Positions 13,133-25,069 of a stretch of DNA of 32,561 bases are shown one piece after another (position 1 is the first letter of the stretch; the number at the start of each line of letters is the position of its first letter). The notes below the pieces were generated by a model, which saw only the letters and a program-made list of their open reading frames with translations, searched no databases and was not told where the DNA came from. This stretch comes from Deltaproteobacteria bacterium RIFOXYD12_FULL_56_24 (lineage in GTDB: Bacteria; Desulfobacterota; Desulfobulbia; Desulfobulbales; Desulfurivibrionaceae): contig MGTD01000060.1 of the NCBI GenBank assembly GCA_001799285.1, forward strand, positions 1 through 32,561, read 5' to 3'. The translations under genes and the position numbers were made by a program.

Positions 13133-14365
13133 TCAAGTATCCGAAATTTTTTGGTAATAATCCCGAATTGCCGCGATTACCCGGTCAACCTCCGCATCCT
13201 GCAGCAGGGGATAGATCGGCAGGGATAGGCTTTCATGCCATAGTTGCAGAGAAACAGAACAAGCATTAGGTAAGCGGTCACAGGGCACCACATCTTGCGG
13301 CGATCGGTTCGGCTCACGTGCAAAAGTACGCATCGCCGTCCCGCTTGCCGCAACCTGCGGCACCCTGTGGCCGCTTATTCCGTGGTTATTTAACCCTTGT
13401 GGGCTTGCCCCGTGATCGGTTACAGCATTAGTTCCGGTTAGCAGTTGAAAGGGCTTGAAGACTGGCCGGGCGGCGCTTATTTTGTGGTTGCGCAGGTGGT
13501 TAAGCAGGGTTTCTGGGTTGGCAAGCTGGACCACGTAACGAAAATAAATTGGTTGCTGGTCTGGCTGCGCGCCTGGCAATCGCAGGGGCAGGTCTTTGAG
13601 TCCGGCATTATAGCGATGGGCGATCTCCCGGCGCCGGTGGATGAAATCCGGTAGACGGGTGAGCTGGACCAGACCCATGGCGGCCTGGAAATCAGTCATC
13701 TTGTAATTGTAGCGAGGGAGATAATCGTCCCGGTTATCATAGTCGCAGAGATCGGCGACCGCGTTTGTCAGTTCCTGGCAATTGCTCGCCACCATCCCCC
13801 CTTCGCCGCAGGTCATCACCTTGGTGGCGTAAAATGAGAAGATGCTCAGATCTCCCAGCGTACCGACCTTGGAGCCGGCAAGCTCCGCCCCGACTGACTG
13901 GGCGCAATCCTCGATAACCGGAATCTCGCGTTCCTTGAATAGTGTTATTCCGGCACAAGGGTTGCCGAACATGTGGGGCACGATGACCGCGCGGGTCTTT
14001 GGGGTAATCAGCCGCAGAGCGGCCTGACAGTCAAGATTCCCGTCGGCTGCGCCGACATCAGCGATAACCGGGGTGGCGCCGGTGTAATGCACCGCGTTGA
14101 GCAGGGCCGTGCAGACATAATCCGGTACAATTACCTCATCGCCTGGCCTTGTTCCCAGGGCCAGCAGCGCCAGATGCAGGGCCGAGGTGCCGGAATTTAC
14201 CGCCACCGCCTGTTGCAAGCCGAGAAAATCGGCGAAACGTTTTTCAAATTTACCCACCATCGCGCCCTGAGCGATCTGGCCGGACAGGATAGTCTCGGCG
14301 GCAGCCTTGGCCTCCTCAGCGCCCAGAGTGGGTCGTGAATGGGGGATGGGGTCAATATTCTTCAA
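13133..14365 (-). CDS. DegT/DnrJ/EryC1 aminotransferase carrying an in-frame R1 insertion
   Basis: This is a fold-type I PLP enzyme of the sugar aminotransferase (DegT/ArnB/WecE) family: AVNSGTSALHLALLAL, VIEDCAQSVGA with the PLP-contacting Asp, FSFYATKVMTCGEGGMV with Schiff-base Lys182, and YNYKMTDFQAAMGL. It transfers an amino group, usually from glutamate, to a keto-sugar nucleotide. The start TTG 14365 overlaps the end of the WbqC gene by 14 nt. Residues about 314-367 (TDHGASPQGLNNHGISGHRV and onward) do not belong to the family: they are encoded by repeat R1 plus its target duplication, after which the normal C-terminus (WHESLSLPIYPLLQDAEVDR) resumes in frame. Without the insert the protein would be 356 aa. 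Whether the 54 extra residues allow folding is unknown. Confidence 0.88.
   Translation of the reverse strand: MKNIDPIPHSRPTLGAEEAKAAAETILSGQIAQGAMVGKFEKRFADFLGLQQAVAVNSGTSALHLALLALGTRPGDEVIVPDYVCTALLNAVHYTGATPVIADVGAADGNLDCQAALRLITPKTRAVIVPHMFGNPCAGITLFKEREIPVIEDCAQSVGAELAGSKVGTLGDLSIFSFYATKVMTCGEGGMVASNCQELTNAVADLCDYDNRDDYLPRYNYKMTDFQAAMGLVQLTRLPDFIHRRREIAHRYNAGLKDLPLRLPGAQPDQQPIYFRYVVQLANPETLLNHLRNHKISAARPVFKPFQLLTGTNAVTDHGASPQGLNNHGISGHRVPQVAASGTAMRTFAREPNRSPQDVVPCDRLPNACSVSLQLWHESLSLPIYPLLQDAEVDRVIAAIRDYYQKISDT
13270..13423 (+). mobile_element. R1 miniature inverted-repeat element (IS66-like ends) inside the DegT gene
   Basis: The 154-nt element runs from GTAAGCGGTCACAGGGC to GCCCCGTGATCGGTTAC, whose ends are imperfect inverted repeats. 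A perfect direct repeat AGCATTAG flanks it (13262-13269 and 13424-13431). Insert plus duplication is 162 nt, 54 codons. Further arms inside are also palindromic, including GGCGAT...ATCGCC. It has no transposase. GTAA tips with 8-bp duplications are the signature of the IS66 family. Confidence 0.88.
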
Positions 14366-15050
14366 GTTCTTGATTCAACTTTCGGATGAGCGTGAAATCG
14401 CCACAGGTGTTAAAGATGTAATCCAAAGCCGACATATAGGGGAGGAAGGGGCCGTTGATCTGGGGATATTCCGGATGAACGAAATGCTGGAAAAGCAGCT
14501 TGAGCCCCGCCGCCTTGAATTTTTCACACTCCATGTAATCCTTGCCCCCGGCCCCGGCCAGATAAGTGTCGGCCTTGAAATGACGGCAGATGTCGAGCAG
14601 CCTGGCGGTTGGTTCCTCGCTGAGCCCGGGGATATCGCTGGCGCGAACAATCTCGGTGTCAATGGCAAAAATTTTTCTGATCAGCTCAATAGTCGCCATG
14701 TTTAGATCGGCCAGGGAGTCGCCGGTGTTGGCGTAAAGCTCTGTAAGGGCTGGTAGATGCTCACGGTAGCAGGGCGCCTTGCCGTAGTAAGTCAGCAGGG
14801 TCTGCAGGTGTTTTCGGCGCCAGTCCTGCTGATTGTTGATCTGCACCCCGGAGATCAGATCGCCAAAGTTGAAGCTGACCGGCACCGACAACCAGATCCA
14901 TTGCTCATGTGTCTTGATCCGGTTGCGGTTCTGGTACTCGTTTTTTTTGAACTGGACATTGTCCAGCAGCACAAAGAGATCGGCTTTGTCCAGCTTGTCA
15001 AAATATCCGAGCCAAGGCATGAATTGGGGTTGATGAATGGCGATTCTCAT
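14352..15050 (-). CDS. wbqC: WbqC-like family protein
   Basis: This 232-aa protein begins MRIAIHQPQFMPWLGYFDKL and continues ADLFVLLDNVQFKKNEYQNR, the defining N-terminal signature of the WbqC family found in O-antigen clusters. The family is repeatedly linked to amino-sugar or glycine-type modification genes but its reaction is unproven. ATG 15050 lies directly beside repeat R4, whose edge supplies AAGGAA a few bases upstream, so the ribosome site is inside the repeat boundary. It overlaps the DegT aminotransferase by 14 nt; the pair may act on the same sugar. Length is close to the family norm. Confidence 0.85.
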   Translation of the reverse strand: MRIAIHQPQFMPWLGYFDKLDKADLFVLLDNVQFKKNEYQNRNRIKTHEQWIWLSVPVSFNFGDLISGVQINNQQDWRRKHLQTLLTYYGKAPCYREHLPALTELYANTGDSLADLNMATIELIRKIFAIDTEIVRASDIPGLSEEPTARLLDICRHFKADTYLAGAGGKDYMECEKFKAAGLKLLFQHFVHPEYPQINGPFLPYMSALDYIFNTCGDFTLIRKLNQELEEY

Positions 15051-15205
15051 AGGGTTCCTTGCAAATTAATTCACTCCCCTTTGCGGGGGAGTGCGAGGGT
15101 GGGGGGAAGTTGCCATTATATCGTCTGTTGCAGCTACCCCCACTCCCAACCCCTCCCGCAATGGGGGGGGAGTTTTTACAAAATATTAAGAGTTACAAGG
15201 TATTA
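15051..15205. repeat. R4 G/C-rich palindromic repeat, copy 2
   Basis: The arms ACTCCCCTTTGCGGGGGAGT and CCCTCCCGCAATGGGGGGGGA lie between a left flank (TTCCTTGCAAATTAATTC) and a right flank AATATTAAGAGTTACAAGG, which matches, inverted, the left end of R4 copy 1. Its right tip contributes TAA, the stop of the minus-strand polymerase gene, and its left edge contributes the likely ribosome site of the WbqC gene. Confidence 0.7.
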
Positions 15206-16561
15206 GCCTGTTTGCTCGCCAACCAGGTAGGGATAAGTGTATTTGGTGGGCGTCACTGATGCCCTATCGGGCAAGGATCCTTTCGTCTCGACCTTGTTGA
15301 TGATCTTCTCATAGCTCACCAGCAGGGCCAGCAGCAGCATGTATGGTTCCATGATGCGGACGATGATGTAGGTGTTGGCGCCGAGACTGTGGACAAGCAT
15401 GCCGGTGGTAGCGCAGAGTAGCCCCAGGGCCAGGCCCCGGCTGAAGGGATCCGGAGTGCGGCGGTAAACTGATAAAAGATAGCGCAAGATCGTATAATTC
15501 AGAAAAGCAAAGCTTATCAGACCCAGAAGGCCGTTTTCCACCATAAGTCGGATAAACTGACCGTCAAAAAAACCGGCCCCGGTAATGCCGCGACCGAAAA
15601 CCGGACTTCTGGAAAAAAGTACCAGCGCTCTTTTGTAACCCTCGATACGCTCGGAGGTGGAAGGGTCAAACTTTATCCCGCCAATGGTTTCAGTACGGGT
15701 AAAACCCTCCTCTGCTTTCCAGAATCTGGCTCTTTCCTGGATATTTTCGGGCAGCAAGGGGATGGACATCACGGTCAGAATGGCAAAGGCAAAGATCAAG
15801 ATCTTGCGTTGCACCCCCTTGGTCAGGGCCAGGAAGGTGAGCAGGGAAACCCCCCCAGCCACCCAGGAACCCCGCGACTGGGTATAGATAAACGGCAGCA
15901 CCGCAGCCCCCAACAGCAGGGCATATAAGGTTTTTTTTCGGCCCTTGGGCTCATGGATGTAAAGACCGGCCACGACAGCGCCCAACACCACATAATAACC
16001 GCCAAAGGTGTTAGGCTCCAGATTGTTGCCTTCAAAAGGCATGGCAATGCGACCGCCGCCGGGGATTTGCAGATAACCGTTAATCGTGACGATGGCCATG
16101 GTAAGCAAGGCCGAGCCAAGCATGATTTTAATATCCCTTTTATCCCGAGCATAAAAGAAAACGACAAAGAAAAAGAAAAAATACTGAAGCATCTTAAGGG
16201 TAAAGAAAAAGCCGCTGGCCGGGTTGGCGTACAGCATGGCAACCCCGAGAGTGGTAGTCAGAACCAGTACCAGGGAATGCAGGGCCATGGGGGTGAAAAA
16301 CCGCCCGCCCGAGAGCCGTTCGAGGGGGAAATTCTTATTGATTACAAAGTCAAAAAGCACCCTGATCAGCAGTACGGTGAGCAGCAGATCTTCAACTTTG
16401 ATGGAAATTTCCCGGGCGGCGGTTTTACCTATTTCTATCTCCGGGGAAAGGGAAAAGGCCAGCGGCAGCAAATAGAGAGCGATAACCGGGTTGAGGACGG
16501 TGATCAGCAGCAGAATCAGCAGGACAACAAAGCCACCGTATATCAGAAGGATATTTTCCAT
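15203..16561 (-). CDS. Wzy polymerase / O-antigen ligase-like membrane protein
   Basis: This 452-aa protein is almost entirely hydrophobic, with about a dozen membrane helices (MENILLIYGGFVVLLILLLI at the start) and a long loop in the second half with RSPVFGRGITGAGFFDGQF, as in the Wzy_C/O-antigen ligase family, followed by FLNYTILRYLL and GMLVHSLGANTY. It either polymerises repeat units (Wzy) or ligates chains (WaaL-like); with Wzx, Wzz-like and Wza-like neighbours, polymerase is more likely. ATG 16561 begins directly with the first helix. The stop TAA comes from the tip of R4, so the last residues (LVGEQTG) may have been set by that insertion. Confidence 0.82.
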   Translation of the reverse strand: MENILLIYGGFVVLLILLLITVLNPVIALYLLPLAFSLSPEIEIGKTAAREISIKVEDLLLTVLLIRVLFDFVINKNFPLERLSGGRFFTPMALHSLVLVLTTTLGVAMLYANPASGFFFTLKMLQYFFFFFVVFFYARDKRDIKIMLGSALLTMAIVTINGYLQIPGGGRIAMPFEGNNLEPNTFGGYYVVLGAVVAGLYIHEPKGRKKTLYALLLGAAVLPFIYTQSRGSWVAGGVSLLTFLALTKGVQRKILIFAFAILTVMSIPLLPENIQERARFWKAEEGFTRTETIGGIKFDPSTSERIEGYKRALVLFSRSPVFGRGITGAGFFDGQFIRLMVENGLLGLISFAFLNYTILRYLLSVYRRTPDPFSRGLALGLLCATTGMLVHSLGANTYIIVRIMEPYMLLLALLVSYEKIINKVETKGSLPDRASVTPTKYTYPYLVGEQTG

Positions 16562-16645: not shown

Positions 16646-16806
16646 GTAAGCGGTTACAGGGTGCCGCAGGCTGTGGCGCACCCAGAGGGTATAAGTTTCG
16701 CTTGGCAGGCAAGCTGCCAAGCTCAGCTATAAGTGGGACGGCGATGCGTACTTTTGTACGTGAGCCGGACCGATCGCCGCAAGATGTGGTGCCCTGTGAC
16801 CGCTTA
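16646..16806 (-). mobile_element. Short R1 variant with nested R2, at the 3' end of the Wzz gene
   Basis: This 161-nt copy runs from GTAAGCGGTTACAGGG to CCTGTGACCGCTTA. It lacks the outer left part of full R1 and contains R2 at 16678-16730, with stem CTTGGCAG and CTGCCAAG. The TAA stop of the Wzz/kinase gene (16804-16806) is formed by the element's tip. No clean target duplication is seen. The copy at 25501-25661 has the same length. Confidence 0.75.
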
Positions 16807-19026
16807 TTTTTTTCTGCCAATTTTCGCGATCAACCCGGCAATCTTCCAGCGCAGATTTTCCAGGTTATTTCGTAAGCTGACCAAAAGATCACGTTGCAGA
16901 TTTTCCTTATCGATCAGGATGGGGGCTAAGGTTTTGTGCTTGTTGATTACCAGACCGGCGACTTTTACCATTAGGCTTTCCAGATGACTCCTGAACCTGA
17001 CCAGGGTGCTCCGGTCCAGTTTCTCGTACTCGGTCAGCAGCAGCGCCGCGTCCACTTTTTCGGCCAGAATGGAGGTTTCGGAGGTTTCCAGAATGGCGCT
17101 GGTGTCGATAATGACAAAATCGAAAAAATCCCGTAACGAGGCAACAAGGTCTTTCATCCGTTGGGAGTTGATGAAGTTGGCCGGATTTTCCACCCTGCTC
17201 CCGCCGGTGAGGATGTAAAGATTATCCAGGCCCGGGGGGGCAAGCAGGTGTCGGGCCGGGATCTCGCCCAGCATCAGGTCGGTGATCCGGCGAATCGAGA
17301 TATCCCAGTCTTCACTGCCCATAACCACATCACTTAAGCCCGGCTGCCGGTCAATCCCGAACATGCTGTGCAGTTTAGGTGCTTGAAAATCAGCGTCAAC
17401 CAAGGCAACGCTGCGTCCTGCCTGAGCGAGGGCAATGGCCAGATTGGCAGCACAGGTCGTGACTCCCTCCCCTTTGGTGGCGCTCATCACGGCCAGGGTG
17501 CGGATATCATTTTCCCGGGCGGTCAGCAGCAGATTCGGCACCAAGGCCCGATACTCTTCGGCCAGGGTCGAGTCAGCGAGAAAATGAGCCGGCAGGGACA
17601 GATAACGCAAGGCCTCCTCGATGCGCAGACCAGGGTAGCGATTGTGGATCAGCTCCAAGCCTTCGCTTCTGTTCCAGATGGTTAACGAGGTCATGATCGG
17701 CACCCCGAAGGTCTCGGCCAGCACATCCAGTTTGCGCGGCACTGTATCCAGGGCCTCATGAATGAAGCCGGCGATAAAGCCGATGATCACGGACAAGATG
17801 AGGCTGACCACCAGATTGCCAATAAAGGCGATTCTGGTTATCGGCACCAGGGGCAGGACCGGGTAACGGGCGATGGTTACATCCTCCACCAGCTCCGCCT
17901 TGCGCACCTCAACCTCCTGCTGCTTCATCAAAATTTTGTTGTAAAGGGCCTCATTGGCCTCTACTTCCCGCACCAGCAGGTCATAGGTCTTGGCCGCGTC
18001 TGGAATTCCTTTCAGCTTGGCGTAGGTTTCAATCAGGTCCTTCTCCACCGCCCTGCTCTCATCCTCATAGCGTTTTTTCTCCGCCTCCAGATCAACGATA
18101 AACTGCTTGATGATTGCGTTCTTGGCCTCTCGGATGGCCACTACTTCAGGGTGGTTTGGCGTGTAATGGTGCAGCAGCCCCTTTTCCTTTACCCGCAGGT
18201 CTTTAAGAGCCTCATTGAGCCTGGATTGGACGCCGCCGCTTTCATTGTTTGCCCCCCCTGGAACAAAAACCCAGCGGGTATCTTCTTCAGGATTGATATC
18301 CTGGCGCATGGTGACCAGGCTGTCATTGATGCGGGCAATCTTGAATCCCAAGGTGTCAATGATGTTTTTTCTTTCAACGTATCTCGCAAGGATAACCTGC
18401 TGCTCATCCGCAACCGTGGTCAGCTCCAGGCTTTTACGGAATTCATTCAGTTTCTCCCGGGCGGCGGTTAATTGTTCTCTCGATTTTGACGATTGATCGT
18501 CAACGATCTTGATCTCGTTAATAACGCTTTGATTTCTTTCATAATAGGCGGCCTCGCGATACGAGGTTGCCACCAGCTCGGCCAGTTTTTTGGCCATTGC
18601 CGGTTTGGTATCTTGTGTTTTAACGATGAGGATATTGCTTCCATGTTTGTCGGCTTCAGCCGTAATGCTCTTTTCCAGTTTCTTGATCACCGCCATGTAG
18701 TCCTGGGAGCGCAGGATCTCATCGGGTTGCAACTCTGAGGGGATCAAGCCGGCTTTCTGGGCAACGACTCGCAAAACGGGGAAACTGCTGATCATGATTG
18801 AGGCAGTGGCGATATGATCCCCAGGCCGGACAGTGCCGATAAGAATGTCTCCCACGGTGGTGACCTTTTCAATCTTGAGCGAGACCTCGGCTTCGTAAAC
18901 CGGCTCAGGCTTGGCGTAAAAAACCAGGCTGAGCATTAACAGGGCGGCAAGCAGACCGCTGATTTTAATCGTCCGTTTTCTGCGGTGGGTAATCTCCCGG
19001 ACGTCGTTAATCGTATATTCAGCCAT
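16804..19026 (-). CDS. Wzz-like chain-length protein fused to a BY-kinase-like domain with altered P-loop
   Basis: This 740-aa protein has a Wzz domain with an N-terminal helix (residues about 22-40), a long coiled-coil periplasmic region with KSREQLTAAREKLNEF, and a second helix (about 398-425), followed by a cytoplasmic CpsD/BY-kinase-type domain. The Walker A position reads SATKGEGVTTCAANLA near residue 515: the catalytic Lys of the usual GEGKS/T is Val. Walker A' (ALVDADFQAPKLH) is intact and Walker B reads FVIIDTSAI instead of DTPP. The C-terminus (IAGLIAKIGRKK) lacks the Tyr cluster that BY-kinases autophosphorylate. It may thus bind nucleotide weakly or act only structurally in chain-length control. 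It begins 18 nt after the exporter gene. Confidence 0.87.
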   Translation of the reverse strand: MAEYTINDVREITHRRKRTIKISGLLAALLMLSLVFYAKPEPVYEAEVSLKIEKVTTVGDILIGTVRPGDHIATASIMISSFPVLRVVAQKAGLIPSELQPDEILRSQDYMAVIKKLEKSITAEADKHGSNILIVKTQDTKPAMAKKLAELVATSYREAAYYERNQSVINEIKIVDDQSSKSREQLTAAREKLNEFRKSLELTTVADEQQVILARYVERKNIIDTLGFKIARINDSLVTMRQDINPEEDTRWVFVPGGANNESGGVQSRLNEALKDLRVKEKGLLHHYTPNHPEVVAIREAKNAIIKQFIVDLEAEKKRYEDESRAVEKDLIETYAKLKGIPDAAKTYDLLVREVEANEALYNKILMKQQEVEVRKAELVEDVTIARYPVLPLVPITRIAFIGNLVVSLILSVIIGFIAGFIHEALDTVPRKLDVLAETFGVPIMTSLTIWNRSEGLELIHNRYPGLRIEEALRYLSLPAHFLADSTLAEEYRALVPNLLLTARENDIRTLAVMSATKGEGVTTCAANLAIALAQAGRSVALVDADFQAPKLHSMFGIDRQPGLSDVVMGSEDWDISIRRITDLMLGEIPARHLLAPPGLDNLYILTGGSRVENPANFINSQRMKDLVASLRDFFDFVIIDTSAILETSETSILAEKVDAALLLTEYEKLDRSTLVRFRSHLESLMVKVAGLVINKHKTLAPILIDKENLQRDLLVSLRNNLENLRWKIAGLIAKIGRKK

Positions 19027-19044: not shown

Positions 19045-22005
19045 CTATTTTCCACTCCAAGCTTCGCCACCACCGGTCGGCATTGAGGGCGGAGTCGAAA
19101 TGGTCGTGGTGGCTGCCGGCGCCGCTTCCCTCCTGATTGGGAAGCCCTCATTCTTAGGCCAGGCCGTGGCGCCATAGATATCCATCGGGGTGCGCATTAC
19201 GGTCAAGTAAGGGGAGAGGGTGCGCAGGAAATCGCGGATATTCCCGGCCGTGTTGGTGGCCATGTAGATTATATCGCCGTTCTGCAGGGAGACGTTCTGC
19301 CGAAAATCGCCTTTCTGGTAAAGATCATTGAGATTGACCACAAAGGCGTCCGGTTTGGTTGCATCCCCTCGGATAACCATTACCTCGTCTGCCTTGGCAT
19401 AGTATGAGGGTCCGCCGGCCAGGGTAAGAGCCTCGAGCAGGTTGATGCTCGCGTCATAGGAAAACAGGCCAGGACGCATTACCTCACCGAACACAAAAAT
19501 CCGGTTCTTGACCTCGCTCTTGTAGGGGATGAAGAGCACATCCCCATCATCAATAGCAATGTCATGCCGATAATCGGCCTTGAACAGGATGTCAAAGACA
19601 TTAACCTGATAGGTCTTGCGGGCTCTGGTAATTTCAACCCTGGTCAGATCTGCCTCCTTGAGGTAGCCGCCGACCCGGGAGATAAACTCGGTCAGCCGTT
19701 CCTGGCCATAAAGACGGTAAGTCCCAGGGCCGGTCGGTTGTCGGGTCAGATCCCGCACTGCGCCAAAGATGGAGGCTCTGTAAGCAAGTTTTTCAGTGGG
19801 ACGGACCTTGACCAGGGGATGCTTGATGTACTGCCGTAAAAATTCCGCCAACGCCTGGTCTGCCTCGGTCGGGGTCAGGCCGGCCATCTTGAAATCAGTT
19901 ATGAAGGAGAAAGAGACCGTTCCTCTTGGGGAAACATTCAACTTGTAGGTGTTTTCTTTAATCCCTTCCCAGATGGTTGCCTCCACCACGTCTGTGGGGC
20001 CAATCCGGTATTCGGCAACCCCATCTGTTACCTTAAAAGACTGGTATTCCCGCATTGGAATCAGCTCCGGCGCCTCTTCAAACGGGTCAATGTTTTGGGC
20101 ACGCCCAAGCACGGCCGGTTCGCCAGCGTCTGAGCCCAGTCCGGATAAACGGGTTGAGGCGGTCGTGGTTATTTCCCCAGCGCTTTTGCCTGGCAACTCC
20201 TCGACGATCGGATCCCCCCGGAGAATAACGCGGATATCCACCCTCCGGTTTTTCTGCAGGGTGGCCTGATCGTTACCTGGATACTGGACCACACTGTCTC
20301 CAAAAGCCTCTTGCCTGATCCTCTCAGGCAGAATACTCTGCTCGCTTAGATAACGGGCGACACTCCGGACCCGCCCTTCGGAAAGTATCTGGTTGTTGGG
20401 AAATTCGGAGGTGTTAATGTCCCGGATATCGGCAAAACCGTCCATTTCCAGCGAAGTGCCTTCCGTGGTCCGCAGAAACTCCGCCACCCGGTTCAGGACC
20501 ACAATGGTTTCCGGCCGCAGATTAACCTTGCCGGTATCGAAAAAAACCGCCGTGGTAAAAACCGGGATTACTATCTTCTCGAGGATTTTTTCGATTTTTA
20601 CCACCGGGGGCGGCGGCAAGGGGATAGCTTCTTTTTTGCGGCAGTCGGCGGAAAAAACCCCGGGCGTGGCCGGGCCCTGCAGCCAAATTTTTAGTCCCTC
20701 ACCATGGGAGGCGGCGATCAAATCCGGCTTCCCGTCGCCATTGATATCCCGGATGGCAAGATCGTGATAATATCCGGCCTTGGGAAGGCCCTCGTCCCTG
20801 GCCTCCCATTTTCTCCCCCCTCCGGGGCCAAGTTCCTGATACCAGATAAAAAGCCCATGGTTGTCGTTGGAGGTCGCGACGATATCCAGCAGGCCATTGC
20901 CGTCGAGATCAACCGCCTTGGCCCGCCAGAAGCTTCCTTTTGCCGTAAGCTTTTCCGAGCGAGGGAAACCGCTTTTCCCATCGCCATAGTAAATATGCAC
21001 CCCGTTGAAATTGGAGGCCGCAATGATATCCGGGTTGCCGTCACCGTCAATATCGGCGATCTCCACTCCCCAGTAGGAATCCCTGGCGAGCACCGGGCCG
21101 GCTGACCAACGGCCGTCACCCAGGCCGAACCAAACCCGCAAAGAGGCCGAATCGACTCCCCAGCCCGCTCCGGCAATATCCAGTTTGCCGTCATGGTTTA
21201 AATCAGCAACCGCGATATCCTTGTAAATACCAATCCGGGTGGGGCCGGTTTCGGAGGCAAAGTTCCCCTGGCCGTTACCCAGCCAGACCTGGATGCCGCC
21301 GATGTTGATGTTGGAGGTGTTGGCCGCGATGAGATCAAGATGACCGTCGCCGTTGATATCGACCAGGCGCAAGCCCTCGTAAAGCTCTTTTTCGGTTATC
21401 GGGGGCGTGGTAATAAAACGGCCCTGTTCGTTGATTCGGATGTGGATGCCCTTGGTATCGCCGATACTGGAGAAAATTAGATCCTTGTAGCCGTCTCCGG
21501 TGATGTCTCCAGCGGTTATCGAGCGGACATCAGCCCTGATTCGGATCCGCTGCTCCCGTGCCCAATTGCCGGCCCCATCGCCCAGCCAGTAAAAAATATC
21601 GCCTGGTTCGGTGCTGCCGCCGATGATATCCAGGCCGCACTCATTATTAAAGTCATCTACCCACAGACTGCGATAACTGCCGGACATCTCCGGGCCGATG
21701 TCCAGAGACCATCTATTTTCAGCTTTGACCCGAGCCACTCCCGGATCAAGCAGGGCAAAAGGCATCGATCCGGCACATCCGGCGAGGAAAGGCAGAACAC
21801 AGCAGATGGCCGCGACCAACCGAGCCAGAGAAGAATTTTTCAGTAACCAATCACGGGGTAAACCCACAGAGGTCAAATAACCACGGAACAAGCGGCCATA
21901 GGGTGCCGCAGGTTGCGGCAAGCGGGCTGGCGATGCGTACTTTTGTACGTGAGCCGGACCGATCGCCGCAAGATGTGGTGCCCGGTGATCGCTTACCTTT
22001 TTCAT
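19045..22005 (-). CDS. Outer-membrane polysaccharide exporter fusing FG-GAP, OmpA and Wza/SLBB domains
   Basis: This is a 986-aa protein. After an N-terminal stretch encoded by repeat R1 (residues about 4-57) comes a lipoprotein signal with lipobox LAGC (Cys77). Residues about 90-440 hold several FG-GAP/VCBS-type blade repeats (DINGDGHLDLIAAN, DIDGDGNPDIIAAS, DLDGNGLLDIVATS) with Ca-binding DxDGDG loops. Residues 467-590 form an OmpA-like peptidoglycan-binding domain (AVFFDTGKVNLRPE, GFADIRD, LSEGRVRSVARYL). Residues 664-950 are Poly_export plus SLBB (YRIGPTDVVEATIW, IFGAVRDLTRQP, IFVFGEVMRPGLF). Wza-family proteins are usually about 350-400 aa with only the last part. It probably forms the outer-membrane channel, anchored to peptidoglycan, with a beta-propeller. 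The start ATG overlaps the HD-GYP stop (ATGA). Confidence 0.88.
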   Translation of the reverse strand: MKKVSDHRAPHLAAIGPAHVQKYASPARLPQPAAPYGRLFRGYLTSVGLPRDWLLKNSSLARLVAAICCVLPFLAGCAGSMPFALLDPGVARVKAENRWSLDIGPEMSGSYRSLWVDDFNNECGLDIIGGSTEPGDIFYWLGDGAGNWAREQRIRIRADVRSITAGDITGDGYKDLIFSSIGDTKGIHIRINEQGRFITTPPITEKELYEGLRLVDINGDGHLDLIAANTSNINIGGIQVWLGNGQGNFASETGPTRIGIYKDIAVADLNHDGKLDIAGAGWGVDSASLRVWFGLGDGRWSAGPVLARDSYWGVEIADIDGDGNPDIIAASNFNGVHIYYGDGKSGFPRSEKLTAKGSFWRAKAVDLDGNGLLDIVATSNDNHGLFIWYQELGPGGGRKWEARDEGLPKAGYYHDLAIRDINGDGKPDLIAASHGEGLKIWLQGPATPGVFSADCRKKEAIPLPPPPVVKIEKILEKIVIPVFTTAVFFDTGKVNLRPETIVVLNRVAEFLRTTEGTSLEMDGFADIRDINTSEFPNNQILSEGRVRSVARYLSEQSILPERIRQEAFGDSVVQYPGNDQATLQKNRRVDIRVILRGDPIVEELPGKSAGEITTTASTRLSGLGSDAGEPAVLGRAQNIDPFEEAPELIPMREYQSFKVTDGVAEYRIGPTDVVEATIWEGIKENTYKLNVSPRGTVSFSFITDFKMAGLTPTEADQALAEFLRQYIKHPLVKVRPTEKLAYRASIFGAVRDLTRQPTGPGTYRLYGQERLTEFISRVGGYLKEADLTRVEITRARKTYQVNVFDILFKADYRHDIAIDDGDVLFIPYKSEVKNRIFVFGEVMRPGLFSYDASINLLEALTLAGGPSYYAKADEVMVIRGDATKPDAFVVNLNDLYQKGDFRQNVSLQNGDIIYMATNTAGNIRDFLRTLSPYLTVMRTPMDIYGATAWPKNEGFPIRREAAPAATTTISTPPSMPTGGGEAWSGK
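21843..21996 (-). mobile_element. R1 element inserted just after the start codon of the exporter gene
   Basis: A 154-nt R1 copy with ends GTAACCAATCACGGGG and CCCGGTGATCGCTTAC is flanked by ATTTTTCA (21835-21842) and CTTTTTCA (21997-22004), a 7/8 target duplication. It lies in the opposite orientation, relative to its host gene, to the copies in the DegT and HD-GYP genes. Insert plus duplication is 162 nt, so the frame is kept. R2 is absent. Confidence 0.87.
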
Positions 22006-23615
22006 GCTGCGTTTTCCTCTAACTCATTCTCCGCTTTGTCGGTGGTTTTGCCTTCTTGGTCAAAAGAGGAATCTACCACTGTCAGCAACGGCTCGTGCAT
22101 CAAGTTATATTGCTTGGGTTCGGTCAGCCGACGGCCACGGGCGTCAGTCAATACCGTCACCTCCGGCCTTAAGGGGGCCAGCCTGTTGGCTTTATGCACC
22201 ATGGCGATTTCGCCGGTATTAAGCTGAACATAGAGGCCAACCGGGAAAATCGCGAACTCGTCAATAAGTACCTTCATCAGTCGCCGACTTAACTGTCCTT
22301 GCCCGCGTTCGATAATCTCCTTGACTATCTCGAAGGGGATTTTTCTCTTCCTCTGCGGCCGGGGCTGGAGCATGGCGGTAAAGGTGTCGGCCAGGGAGAT
22401 GATGCTGGCGTACTCGTGGATTTCATCAGCCCGCAAACCCCTAGGGTAGCCGGAGCCGTCCGTCCTTTCATGCACCTGGCGGGCGACCTCGGCTATCACC
22501 GCAGGCAAGCCGCTCTCTTTGAGGATCTCGTATGAGTAAATGGGATGTTTTTTTATTTCTGCCAACTCGTCCTGCTCCAATTTGCCTTTCTTCATCACCA
22601 CAGTCGGCGAAACCCTAAGCATGCCGATATCGTGCAACATGGCGCAGAGTGTCAGTTCTCGCAGGTCGTTTTGTTCATAGCCAAGGACTATTCCCATTTT
22701 GGTGGCAACTACGGACATGTCCAGTTGATGGGAGGTGAGATCATCGCTGCGTTTTTTGGCAAACAGCATCCTGATAAGGGTGTTGTCCGCCATTAAGGAG
22801 GTCATGATCATTTCGGCTATGGTGTTGATGGCTGCGAGATCAGAAGACTTATTTCCCTGGCAGAGGTTCTGCTGATATTCGTTCAGCCCGTTCCACATGT
22901 GCTGCCAGAAAGGATCCGTAAACTCTCTTGCTTCGTTTTGTTCTTTCTGCCCGGGCAGGGGGCCGGGTGAGACGTTGACCGGCTCATCAGCAGAGGGTGG
23001 CGGCGTTTTTTCAGCGATAGCCACTGCTATATCTTCAGCCTGATCAGTTTCGACCGCAGTATCTTCAATCTGAACCGATTCGGTCTGCATCTCTTCCGGC
23101 TGAGCGTTTTCTTCCACAAGTGCTACGACATGAGTATCAGGAGGTGGTTTCGGTTCGGTGATCAGCGGCTCAGCTTCAGTTTCAGCCATGGTTTGACTTG
23201 CGTTGCCGGCAATGGCAAGTTCGGAGTCCTCATTAGCATCTGGAACTAAGCAGACCACAGGTAAGCGATCACCGGGCACCACATCTTGCGGCGATCGGTC
23301 CGGCTCACTTACCAAAGTACGCATCGCCGTCCCGCTTATAGCTGAGCTGGGCAGCTTGTCTGCCCTAGCGAAACTTATGCCCTCTGGGTGCGCCGCAACC
23401 TGCGGCACCCTGTGGCCGCTTGTTCCGTGGTTATTTGACCTTTGGGGGGGTGCCCCGTGATCGGCTACGACAACAGAAGCATCTGTCTCTGTTTTTGCTT
23501 CGTTATCCTCCGCTTGCGGCTCTTCCCCCGTCACCTTCTCCGGCGCAGCCACAAACACGGCATTTCTCTCGCCTGGGTAGGACGACATGGTTCTTAAAAC
23601 ATGGGTCAATCTCAT
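22002..23615 (-). CDS. HD-GYP domain protein with an in-frame R1+R2 insertion
   Basis: This 537-aa protein's second half is an HD-GYP c-di-GMP phosphodiesterase-like domain: LTLCAMLHDIGM with H328/D329, KKHPIYSYEIL, and VHERTDGSGYPRGL around 381-394 (the motif normally starts HHE; the first His is Val here), then SLADTFTAML. The C-terminal part (YVQLNTGEIAMVHKANRLAP) is the usual HD-GYP tail. The first 230 residues are acidic and low complexity, without a membrane segment. Residues about 49-120 are encoded by repeat R1 with nested R2 and do not belong to any domain. The HD-GYP gene overlaps the exporter start (ATGA), so c-di-GMP turnover is coupled to exporter synthesis. Confidence 0.85.
   Translation of the reverse strand: MRLTHVLRTMSSYPGERNAVFVAAPEKVTGEEPQAEDNEAKTETDASVVVADHGAPPQRSNNHGTSGHRVPQVAAHPEGISFARADKLPSSAISGTAMRTLVSEPDRSPQDVVPGDRLPVVCLVPDANEDSELAIAGNASQTMAETEAEPLITEPKPPPDTHVVALVEENAQPEEMQTESVQIEDTAVETDQAEDIAVAIAEKTPPPSADEPVNVSPGPLPGQKEQNEAREFTDPFWQHMWNGLNEYQQNLCQGNKSSDLAAINTIAEMIMTSLMADNTLIRMLFAKKRSDDLTSHQLDMSVVATKMGIVLGYEQNDLRELTLCAMLHDIGMLRVSPTVVMKKGKLEQDELAEIKKHPIYSYEILKESGLPAVIAEVARQVHERTDGSGYPRGLRADEIHEYASIISLADTFTAMLQPRPQRKRKIPFEIVKEIIERGQGQLSRRLMKVLIDEFAIFPVGLYVQLNTGEIAMVHKANRLAPLRPEVTVLTDARGRRLTEPKQYNLMHEPLLTVVDSSFDQEGKTTDKAENELEENAA
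23261..23468 (+). mobile_element. R1 element with nested R2 inside the HD-GYP gene
   Basis: GTAAGCGATCACCGGGC at the left and GCCCCGTGATCGGCTAC at the right are inverted ends. The direct repeats GACCACAG (23253-23260) and GACAACAG (23469-23476) match at 7 of 8 bases. The 208 nt plus 8 is 216, 72 codons. Compared with the DegT copy, the extra 54 nt is exactly R2 (23338-23391). Confidence 0.88.
23338..23391 (+). repeat. R2 hairpin repeat nested in R1
   Basis: This is 54 nt, 18 codons of the HD-GYP frame. Its stem is GGGCAG and CTGCCC around a CTTGT loop. The junctions with R1 (CCGCTT before, GCCGCAACC after) are the same as in the short R1 copies at 16646 and 25501, so R2 entered R1 once and the composite then spread. 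Confidence 0.8.
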
Positions 23616-23686: not shown

Positions 23687-24499
23687 CTACACGATAAATT
23701 CTTCGTTGCCCACCTTTTGCACCGTGAGTACGTCCACTTGGCGCAACTGGGCAATGAAGCCTTCAAAGAGGCACATATCACAAAGCTTGTTGATTTCTCG
23801 CGGCAGGCCTCCGGCATATTTATAAATTTCGGTCATTGCCGCGTCAGTGAATATTTTTGTTTCACAGCCGGCTGTTTCCAGCCGGTGTTCGATATACTTT
23901 TTGGTTTCCTGCTCATTGAGCTGAAATAGATGATACTGAACGGCGATTCTGGCATTAAGCGGGCGGATGCGCTGGATGATCTTGCGCAGTTCCGACTGGC
24001 CGACCAACCCCAGGGTCAAAAGCGGTTGGTTGTTAATCTGAAAGTCTGAAAATAGCCGCAGCTCTTCAAAGATCTCCACACTCTTGATCAGGTGTGCCTC
24101 GTCAATGATCAACACGGCATGCTTGCCGCGGGTATATCCCGAAATGAGCCATTCATGGAAAACGCGGATCATATCCATTTTGGAAGTAAAATCACCCTTG
24201 ATCCCGAACTGATGCAGCATCTCGGAGATAAAGCTGTCGCAATCCACCAGGGTGGGGTGATTGATCAGGGCTACCTCGTACTTGTCCTTATTCTGGAAGA
24301 GGCTGCTCATAACTTGGCTGACGACGATGGTTTTGCCGGCCCCGACATCCCCGGTGAGCAGGAACGAGCCTTTGGTGCTTTGAACGGCGTACATGATTCT
24401 TTTGATTGCTTCTTCGTGCATTGCGGTTGGGAAATAATAGCTGCTATCCGGGGTGACCTGAAAAGGCAGACTCTTAAGATTCCAATGGCTCTCGTACAT
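23687..24499 (-). CDS. ExeA-like AAA ATPase
   Basis: This 270-aa protein begins MYESHWNLKSLPFQVTPDSS, the typical opening of ExeA/GspA and exopolysaccharide-associated ATPases. Walker A is GDVGAGKT (50-57), Walker B VLIIDEAHLI near 127-136, sensor region LTLGLVGQSELR, and the C-terminal lid ends with LPREINKLCDMCLFEG. Proteins of this kind occur beside chain-length and export genes, where they are thought to help assemble or energise the export complex at the inner membrane. It has no C-terminal peptidoglycan-binding extension. The gene is 24 nt after the PilZ gene and 71 nt before the HD-GYP gene. Confidence 0.85.
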   Translation of the reverse strand: MYESHWNLKSLPFQVTPDSSYYFPTAMHEEAIKRIMYAVQSTKGSFLLTGDVGAGKTIVVSQVMSSLFQNKDKYEVALINHPTLVDCDSFISEMLHQFGIKGDFTSKMDMIRVFHEWLISGYTRGKHAVLIIDEAHLIKSVEIFEELRLFSDFQINNQPLLTLGLVGQSELRKIIQRIRPLNARIAVQYHLFQLNEQETKKYIEHRLETAGCETKIFTDAAMTEIYKYAGGLPREINKLCDMCLFEGFIAQLRQVDVLTVQKVGNEEFIV

Positions 24500-24523: not shown

Positions 24524-25069
24524 TTAATGGGGACCTCCATTAATGATTACCTGGACATATCTGATGATTTTGTGACGATCCTCATCATCCAGAACGATGA
24601 ACTTAACTCCGACATCGAAATATTCACCTGATCCACCAGCGTTGGGGGTAACTCTCACTACCTCGCACTGACAGTCCAGTAAATCAACCTGCGGCAGAAA
24701 AACCATGAACAACTCAACCTTCTCTCCCACTAGAAAGGGCCGGCGGACCCGCATCCGCAAACCGGAAGCGCTGATGTTGATCCCGTCCATCTCCACACAC
24801 TGCATCTGCAAGTCAGAAAAAGAATAGACCAAACCGGCCAGTTTGTCGACTTTTCCTTCAATAAAGGTCCGGTCCGGTTTGCGTTTATCTTCCCGTTTGT
24901 CGAGAAGCCGGTACAGTTGAGACACTTTTTCGCCAAAGATTTTTTCTTTAAGCTCAAGCCGGCGGTTCCGCTCCGAGTCGCTATTGTCTAATGGCTTGTA
25001 ATAGACAATAGAATCGACAGTATCAACTCTCTGGCCGTCGCGTCTGTGTTCCAGATATTCTATTTCCAC
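24524..25069 (-). CDS. PilZ-domain-like c-di-GMP receptor
   Basis: The C-terminal half of this 181-aa protein fits a PilZ barrel: DGINISASGLRMRVRRPFLVGEKVELFMV, which contains the (D/N)xSxxG element as NISASG, then CEVVRVTPNAGG and YFDVGVKFIVLD. The upstream Arg-rich element of PilZ (RxxxR) is not in its usual place; candidates are RRDGQR at the N-terminus or ERNRRLELK. The N-terminal half is charged and helical. c-di-GMP binding is therefore plausible, not certain. It is the first gene of the minus operon with the ATPase, HD-GYP and exporter, placing a second-messenger sensor at its head. The leader contains R3. Confidence 0.72.
   Translation of the reverse strand: MEIEYLEHRRDGQRVDTVDSIVYYKPLDNSDSERNRRLELKEKIFGEKVSQLYRLLDKREDKRKPDRTFIEGKVDKLAGLVYSFSDLQMQCVEMDGINISASGLRMRVRRPFLVGEKVELFMVFLPQVDLLDCQCEVVRVTPNAGGSGEYFDVGVKFIVLDDEDRHKIIRYVQVIINGGPH

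Follow-up and report, generated by a model that had tools for sequence, protein, structure and literature searches.

How a single lipoprotein chain came to combine a β-propeller, a peptidoglycan-binding domain and a polysaccharide-exporter core, and what such a chain might do in the cell envelope, are the questions raised by one gene in the 32,561-nucleotide stretch of DNA analysed here (the window). A preliminary description had noted the combination from the letters and reading frames, and the frame bears it out: one uninterrupted ORF of 986 codons runs from ATG to stop on the reverse strand (19045–22005), and Pfam places along it FG-GAP, OmpA, Poly_export and SLBB domains, in this order and each above its curated cut-off.

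The fusion exporter and its modules

The gene and its parts are as follows.

19045–22005, (−): ORF of the fusion exporter, read as 986 aa; lipoprotein signal, FG-GAP propeller, OmpA, Poly_export and SLBB domains, conserved C-terminal tail
21843–21996, (−): 154-bp mobile repeat, in frame after ATG AAA AAG, with flanks TGAAAAAG / TGAAAAAT
21775–21846, (−): lipoprotein signal after the insert, residues 54–77, lipobox LAGC, Cys77 (from sequence; the empty-site reading aligns with orthologs)
20671–21717, (−): seven-bladed FG-GAP propeller, about residues 97–445 (Pfam, AlphaFold model, fold search, loop motifs)
20248–20544, (−): OmpA/MotB-type peptidoglycan domain, residues 488–586, with D526 and R545 (Pfam, PDB, ortholog alignment)
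20041–20208, (−): variable linker from OmpA to the OPX core, residues 600–655 (ortholog comparison, dN/dS)
19801–20016, (−): Poly_export (PES, Wza D1-like), residues 664–735 (Pfam, Wza alignment)
19519–19785, (−): first SLBB-like (Wza D2-like) region, about residues 741–829 (limits inferred from the Wza alignment)
19264–19503, (−): second SLBB domain, residues 835–914 (Pfam)
19192–19245, (−): conserved amphipathic segment near the C-terminus, residues 921–938, with a putative outer-membrane role

The propeller, which the preliminary description had predicted to bind calcium, is matched by FG-GAP_3 in six stretches (E 1.2e-37), and it is the only well-modelled part of the AlphaFold prediction, in blocks mostly at pLDDT 65–90. 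Its model resembles aldos-2-ulose dehydratase and CRTAC1 (Z about 32) as well as integrin alpha (Z about 29), and it has the seven blades and DxDxDG-type loops of the FG-GAP/integrin-alpha type: strict DxNxDGxxD-type loops occur in six blades of the window protein and in all seven blades of two orthologs (L041 and L082). Two other Pfam hits inside these repeats, PliI and the sub-cut-off TcdB_toxin_midN, are taken to be repeat cross-hits. Structure prediction, which the description had recommended, was less informative for the rest of the chain: the whole model has a mean pLDDT of 54, with low confidence in the OmpA and OPX parts, and the OPX core modelled alone – from only four sequences – reaches 38.8.

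The OmpA domain (PF00691, residues 488–586; E 6.9e-9, 36.4 bits against a cut-off of 27.2) is matched in NCBIfam by TssL, YiaD and MotS-type models and aligns with MotS and Pal in the PDB, with Asp and Arg retained. The two diaminopimelate-binding residues that the description had expected are D526 (in GFAD) and R545 (in LSEGR), both conserved in 5/5 orthologs, which makes cell-wall anchoring through this domain plausible on sequence grounds. The position of the domain also bears on where the propeller might lie. FG-GAP proteins are frequently extracellular, and a sugar-binding lectin, PLL2, stands at rank 45 among the propeller's fold matches; the propeller could thus be imagined as a surface-exposed lectin that retains exported polymer on the cell, with the OmpA and OPX parts periplasmic. 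Fold similarity, however, tells little about the ligand of a propeller, and this one is flanked by an N-terminal lipid on one side and a wall-binding domain on the other, with nothing between the two recognised as membrane-spanning, so that surface display appears improbable.

What follows the OmpA domain is recognisably an OPX core. Poly_export (PF02563) is found with E 9.8e-14 and 51.7 bits against a cut-off of 28, and is followed by SLBB matches in two stretches for PF22461 and one for PF10531, the best SLBB_2 match (E 2.4e-21, two stretches) lying at residues 835–914; domains D1–D3 of Escherichia coli Wza (2j58) align with the core at E 3.4e-13 and 8.5e-14. The best NCBIfam matches are TIGR03027 (119 bits) and EpsE, TIGR03028 (104 bits), both below their equivalog cut-offs. 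The gene is, moreover, linked to co-polymerase and Wzy-type genes, as expected of the OPX family. Poly_export is nonetheless stated to open the mature chain in this family (PMC9603273), whereas here it begins at residue 664, behind the propeller and the OmpA domain, and it is for this reason that the protein is termed an OPX variant.

A mobile repeat at the gene start

In the window strain, the beginning of the gene is not entirely its own. Codons ~4–54 derive from a 154-bp repeat that is absent from the orthologs, and the sequence proper to the family restarts at about residue 55. The ends of the repeat are inverted (GTAAGCGATCAC...GTGATTGGTTAC) and its 8-bp target duplication is almost perfect (TGAAAAAG/TGAAAAAT); many other copies in the same genome have clean 8-bp duplications. 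With the repeat removed, the empty site reads MKKSSLARLVAAICCVLPFLAGC, in agreement with MKRSSFPWLVVVFCCVLPLLTGC of an ortholog. Past the insert, a lipobox, LAGC (Cys77), was read by eye downstream of a hydrophobic stretch. As the repeat has one stop-free frame on each strand and amounts, together with its duplication, to 162 bp or 54 codons, its insertions can preserve the frame of a gene, as in the fusion exporter and in the nearby HD-GYP and DegT genes. Because the start of the exporter gene has been disturbed in this way, its expression in the window strain is uncertain; the lipoprotein may be made there with a long n-region or from a later start.

The element itself is MITE-like (loci L088–L117). 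Its copies in the window lie at 21843–21996, 13268–13423, 23258–23488 (with other sequence) and 16727–16813 (partial), which include those within the HD-GYP and DegT frames; across the window genome, 40 strong copies were scored out of ~258 candidates, and the genomes of relatives contain related matches, mostly shorter. The 8-bp duplication and GTAA ends are features that we take to point to IS66, but an IS66 transposase as the source was rejected, none being present in the window genome.

Distribution, descent and selection

Orthologs were sought in 97 related genomes and a large genome collection, and then in a wider search. Three loci match over nearly the whole chain, with 80% (L039), 54% (L041) and 85% (L040) identity, the last ending at a contig edge and continuing, for its N-terminal part, on a second contig (L054); the wider search added a fifth fusion locus, in genome G647 (L070/L082), with 51–57% identity depending on the module. 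The preliminary description had named a frameshift or an assembly error joining separate genes as what would overturn it. Since four orthologs from other genomes repeat this domain order, such an artefact is excluded, as is chance, and the survey of genomes that it had proposed yields at least five loci, all in uncultured genomes, that share both this order and their operon neighbours.

The fusion is rare. It occurs in 3/257 genomes of the order, in two of the 17 genomes searched in the window's genus and, in a sample of 395 genomes of the phylum, solely in the window genome and that of L041. Because so few members of the genus possess it and the copy nearest to that of the window belongs to another family, the locus has probably moved horizontally. 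The fused forms, five of the 34 OPX cores placed on a tree, make up one clade with support of 100/100, whose neighbours are unfused relatives, mostly of 280–430 aa. A 738-aa frame at another locus (L081:7055–9271) was considered as a further instance and rejected: it joins NTP_transf_5 to an OPX core, two parts encoded by separate neighbouring genes in L080 and L083. Beside it lies a gene for a co-polymerase/BY-kinase whose periplasmic part contains an inserted Cds6_C NTF2-like domain (L081:4319–7051).

Among the closer orthologs, dN/dS (NG86) is ~0.06–0.18 for the propeller, 0.08–0.11 for OmpA, 0.04–0.12 for the core and ~0.35 for the linker. Every module is, by these values, under purifying selection, and the retention of three modules around a loose OmpA–core linker is the pattern expected of a flexible joint. 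These values also bear on whether the OPX part still exports at all. The chain has no Pfam match to Wza_C – only the short amphipathic segment near its C-terminus – and no β-barrel partner gene was recognised within the window, so that one could picture a periplasmic scaffold which has lost export and links wall, co-polymerase and polymerase while the polymer leaves by another route. The D1–D3 core is, however, under tighter constraint than any other part of the chain, and many OPX proteins without Wza_C serve export through a separate barrel (PMC9601211); loss of export is accordingly the least credible of the readings, and a very improbable one.

Operon, partner kinase and comparison with known systems

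The neighbouring genes are the following.

24524–25069, (−): PilZ domain protein (Pfam)
23687–24499, (−): XrtA/PEP-CTERM-type AAA ATPase (TIGR03015, 217 bits, below the 324.5 cut-off)
22002–23615, (−): HD-GYP protein, with repeat sequence in its N-terminal linker too (Pfam, repeat search)
16804–19026, (−): co-polymerase with BY pseudokinase domain, GEGV for GEGK, no Tyr tail (Pfam, NCBIfam, motif comparison)
15203–16561, (−): Wzy_C/O-antigen-ligase-like membrane protein (Pfam)
14352–15050, (−): WbqC-like protein (Pfam)
13133–14365, (−): DegT/DnrJ aminotransferase, with an in-frame repeat copy (Pfam, repeat search)

Wherever contigs allow, all fusion loci follow the order PilZ, XrtA-type ATPase, HD-GYP, fusion exporter, co-polymerase and Wzy-like gene, with WbqC and DegT mostly coming next. 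The XrtA-type ATPase is present although the window genome (G000, 95% complete) contains no PF09721 match, i.e. no detectable exosortase, which leaves the locus outside XrtA/exosortase systems as defined. At two of the ortholog loci, genes are split into two frames – Wzy-like (L040:4423–5629), PHP (L082:5940–7436) and DegT (L082:17389–18441) – through either decay or assembly error.

The neighbour that the preliminary description called BY-kinase-like does have a BY-kinase domain, but its catalytic lysine and Tyr cluster are gone. Its Walker A motif has no P-loop lysine, being GEGV or GEGA in 5/5 fusion loci (the window, L039, L040, L041 and L082), and the last 40 residues contain 0–2 Tyr (none in the window protein, which has GEGV), whereas GEGK is retained in 7/7 relatives whose exporter is unfused, and several of these also have a Tyr cluster. 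The partner of the fusion exporter is, judged by its sequence, a pseudokinase. As the fusion and the pseudokinase both trace to one clade, their association counts as a single evolutionary case.

Taken together, the evidence leans modestly towards a wall-tied outer-membrane lipoprotein that works alongside a pseudokinase co-polymerase as the OPX subunit of a Wzy-type exopolysaccharide pathway; wall binding, the ligand of the propeller, topology and pore are all inferred. The N-terminal lipid would hold the N-terminus in the outer membrane, where the propeller, kept nearby, may bind polymer or a partner with the help of calcium, while the OmpA domains of the oligomer would clamp peptidoglycan round the channel and the OPX core would dock on the co-polymerase. 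Such a geometry – N-terminal lipid, OmpA before D1, and a core rising back to the outer membrane – could let OmpA sit at wall level round the D1 ring. In the Wza–Wzc complex, D1 of the exporter touches the co-polymerase, and disassembly is attributed to autophosphorylation (PMC12881504); here, because the kinase beside it seems to be inactive, wall anchoring and contacts with the pseudokinase probably keep the translocon in place, where tyrosine phosphorylation would otherwise assemble and dismantle it. The HD-GYP and PilZ genes of the operon suggest c-di-GMP control, and their products probably set export output. A stronger version, in which MotB-like wall clamps on each subunit, a ring of calcium-type propellers and permanent, c-di-GMP-controlled anchoring replace kinase cycling altogether, is offered only tentatively.

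A plainer reading would leave the mechanism unchanged: the fused domains would merely stabilise or localise a Wza-type channel, and phosphorylation control would come from another kinase. The core is indeed an ordinary D1–D3 OPX, kinase-inactive co-polymerases are known (PMC12004946), and one genome with the fusion locus (G053) has another BY-kinase above the cut-off; G009 has one below it. In G000, G097 and G647 no further BY-kinase exceeds the cut-off, which speaks against this reading, as does the lack of a Tyr cluster on the co-polymerase for phosphorylation in trans; an ordinary, decorated exporter is on the whole rather unlikely. For the preferred wall-tied subunit, a precedent for one component exists in Myxococcus xanthus, where EcpK/EpsV (PMC12004946) is a co-polymerase working with a BY pseudokinase that likewise has neither Walker residues nor a Tyr tail; there, however, the pseudokinase stands as a protein of its own, and no fusion of the OPX protein is reported.

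Other parallels concern single modules. CRTAC1 and integrin alpha share the seven-bladed FG-GAP fold and repeated calcium-type loops, but only ~13–16% identity with the propeller, and MotB/MotS, Pal and TssL have the same peptidoglycan-binding domain with Asp and Arg kept, yet not between a propeller and an OPX core. The XrtA/PEP-CTERM export protein (TIGR03027) and EpsE (TIGR03028) are the closest NCBIfam relatives of the core, and an XrtA-type ATPase adjoins the gene; the scores are nevertheless below cut-off, the window genome is without exosortase and, judged from the model match, the N-terminal modules are absent from those families.

OPX classes have been defined as Poly_export–SLBB architectures to which Wza_C or GfcC may be added (PMC9603273 and PMC9601211), and the main texts of both papers make no mention of OmpA, in keeping with the earlier claim that the architecture is unusual. 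A fusion of FG-GAP with OPX or exosortase was not found described in the searchable literature, covered in part and through main texts; the fusion exporter is, within that literature, a variant of the OPX family with no described example. To a classification built on Poly_export, SLBB and C-terminal domains, the fusion clade adds large N-terminal modules and a dead partner kinase.

The closest whole-system comparison remains E. coli Wza, a class 1 OPX (PDB 2j58), and the Wza–Wzc complex (PMC12881504). Like the fusion exporter, Wza is a lipoprotein with a Poly_export D1 and two SLBB-type domains, and its gene is linked to co-polymerase and Wzy-like genes; unlike Wza, the fusion exporter has ~580 residues (propeller and OmpA) ahead of D1 and no Wza_C match, and its partner kinase, unlike that of Wza–Wzc, is without catalytic residues. 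If the proposed reading is true, this would be a wall-tied exporter that dispenses with the phosphorylation cycle regarded as central to Wza–Wzc systems, and a comparison of the two could test the roles of that cycle and of wall anchoring.
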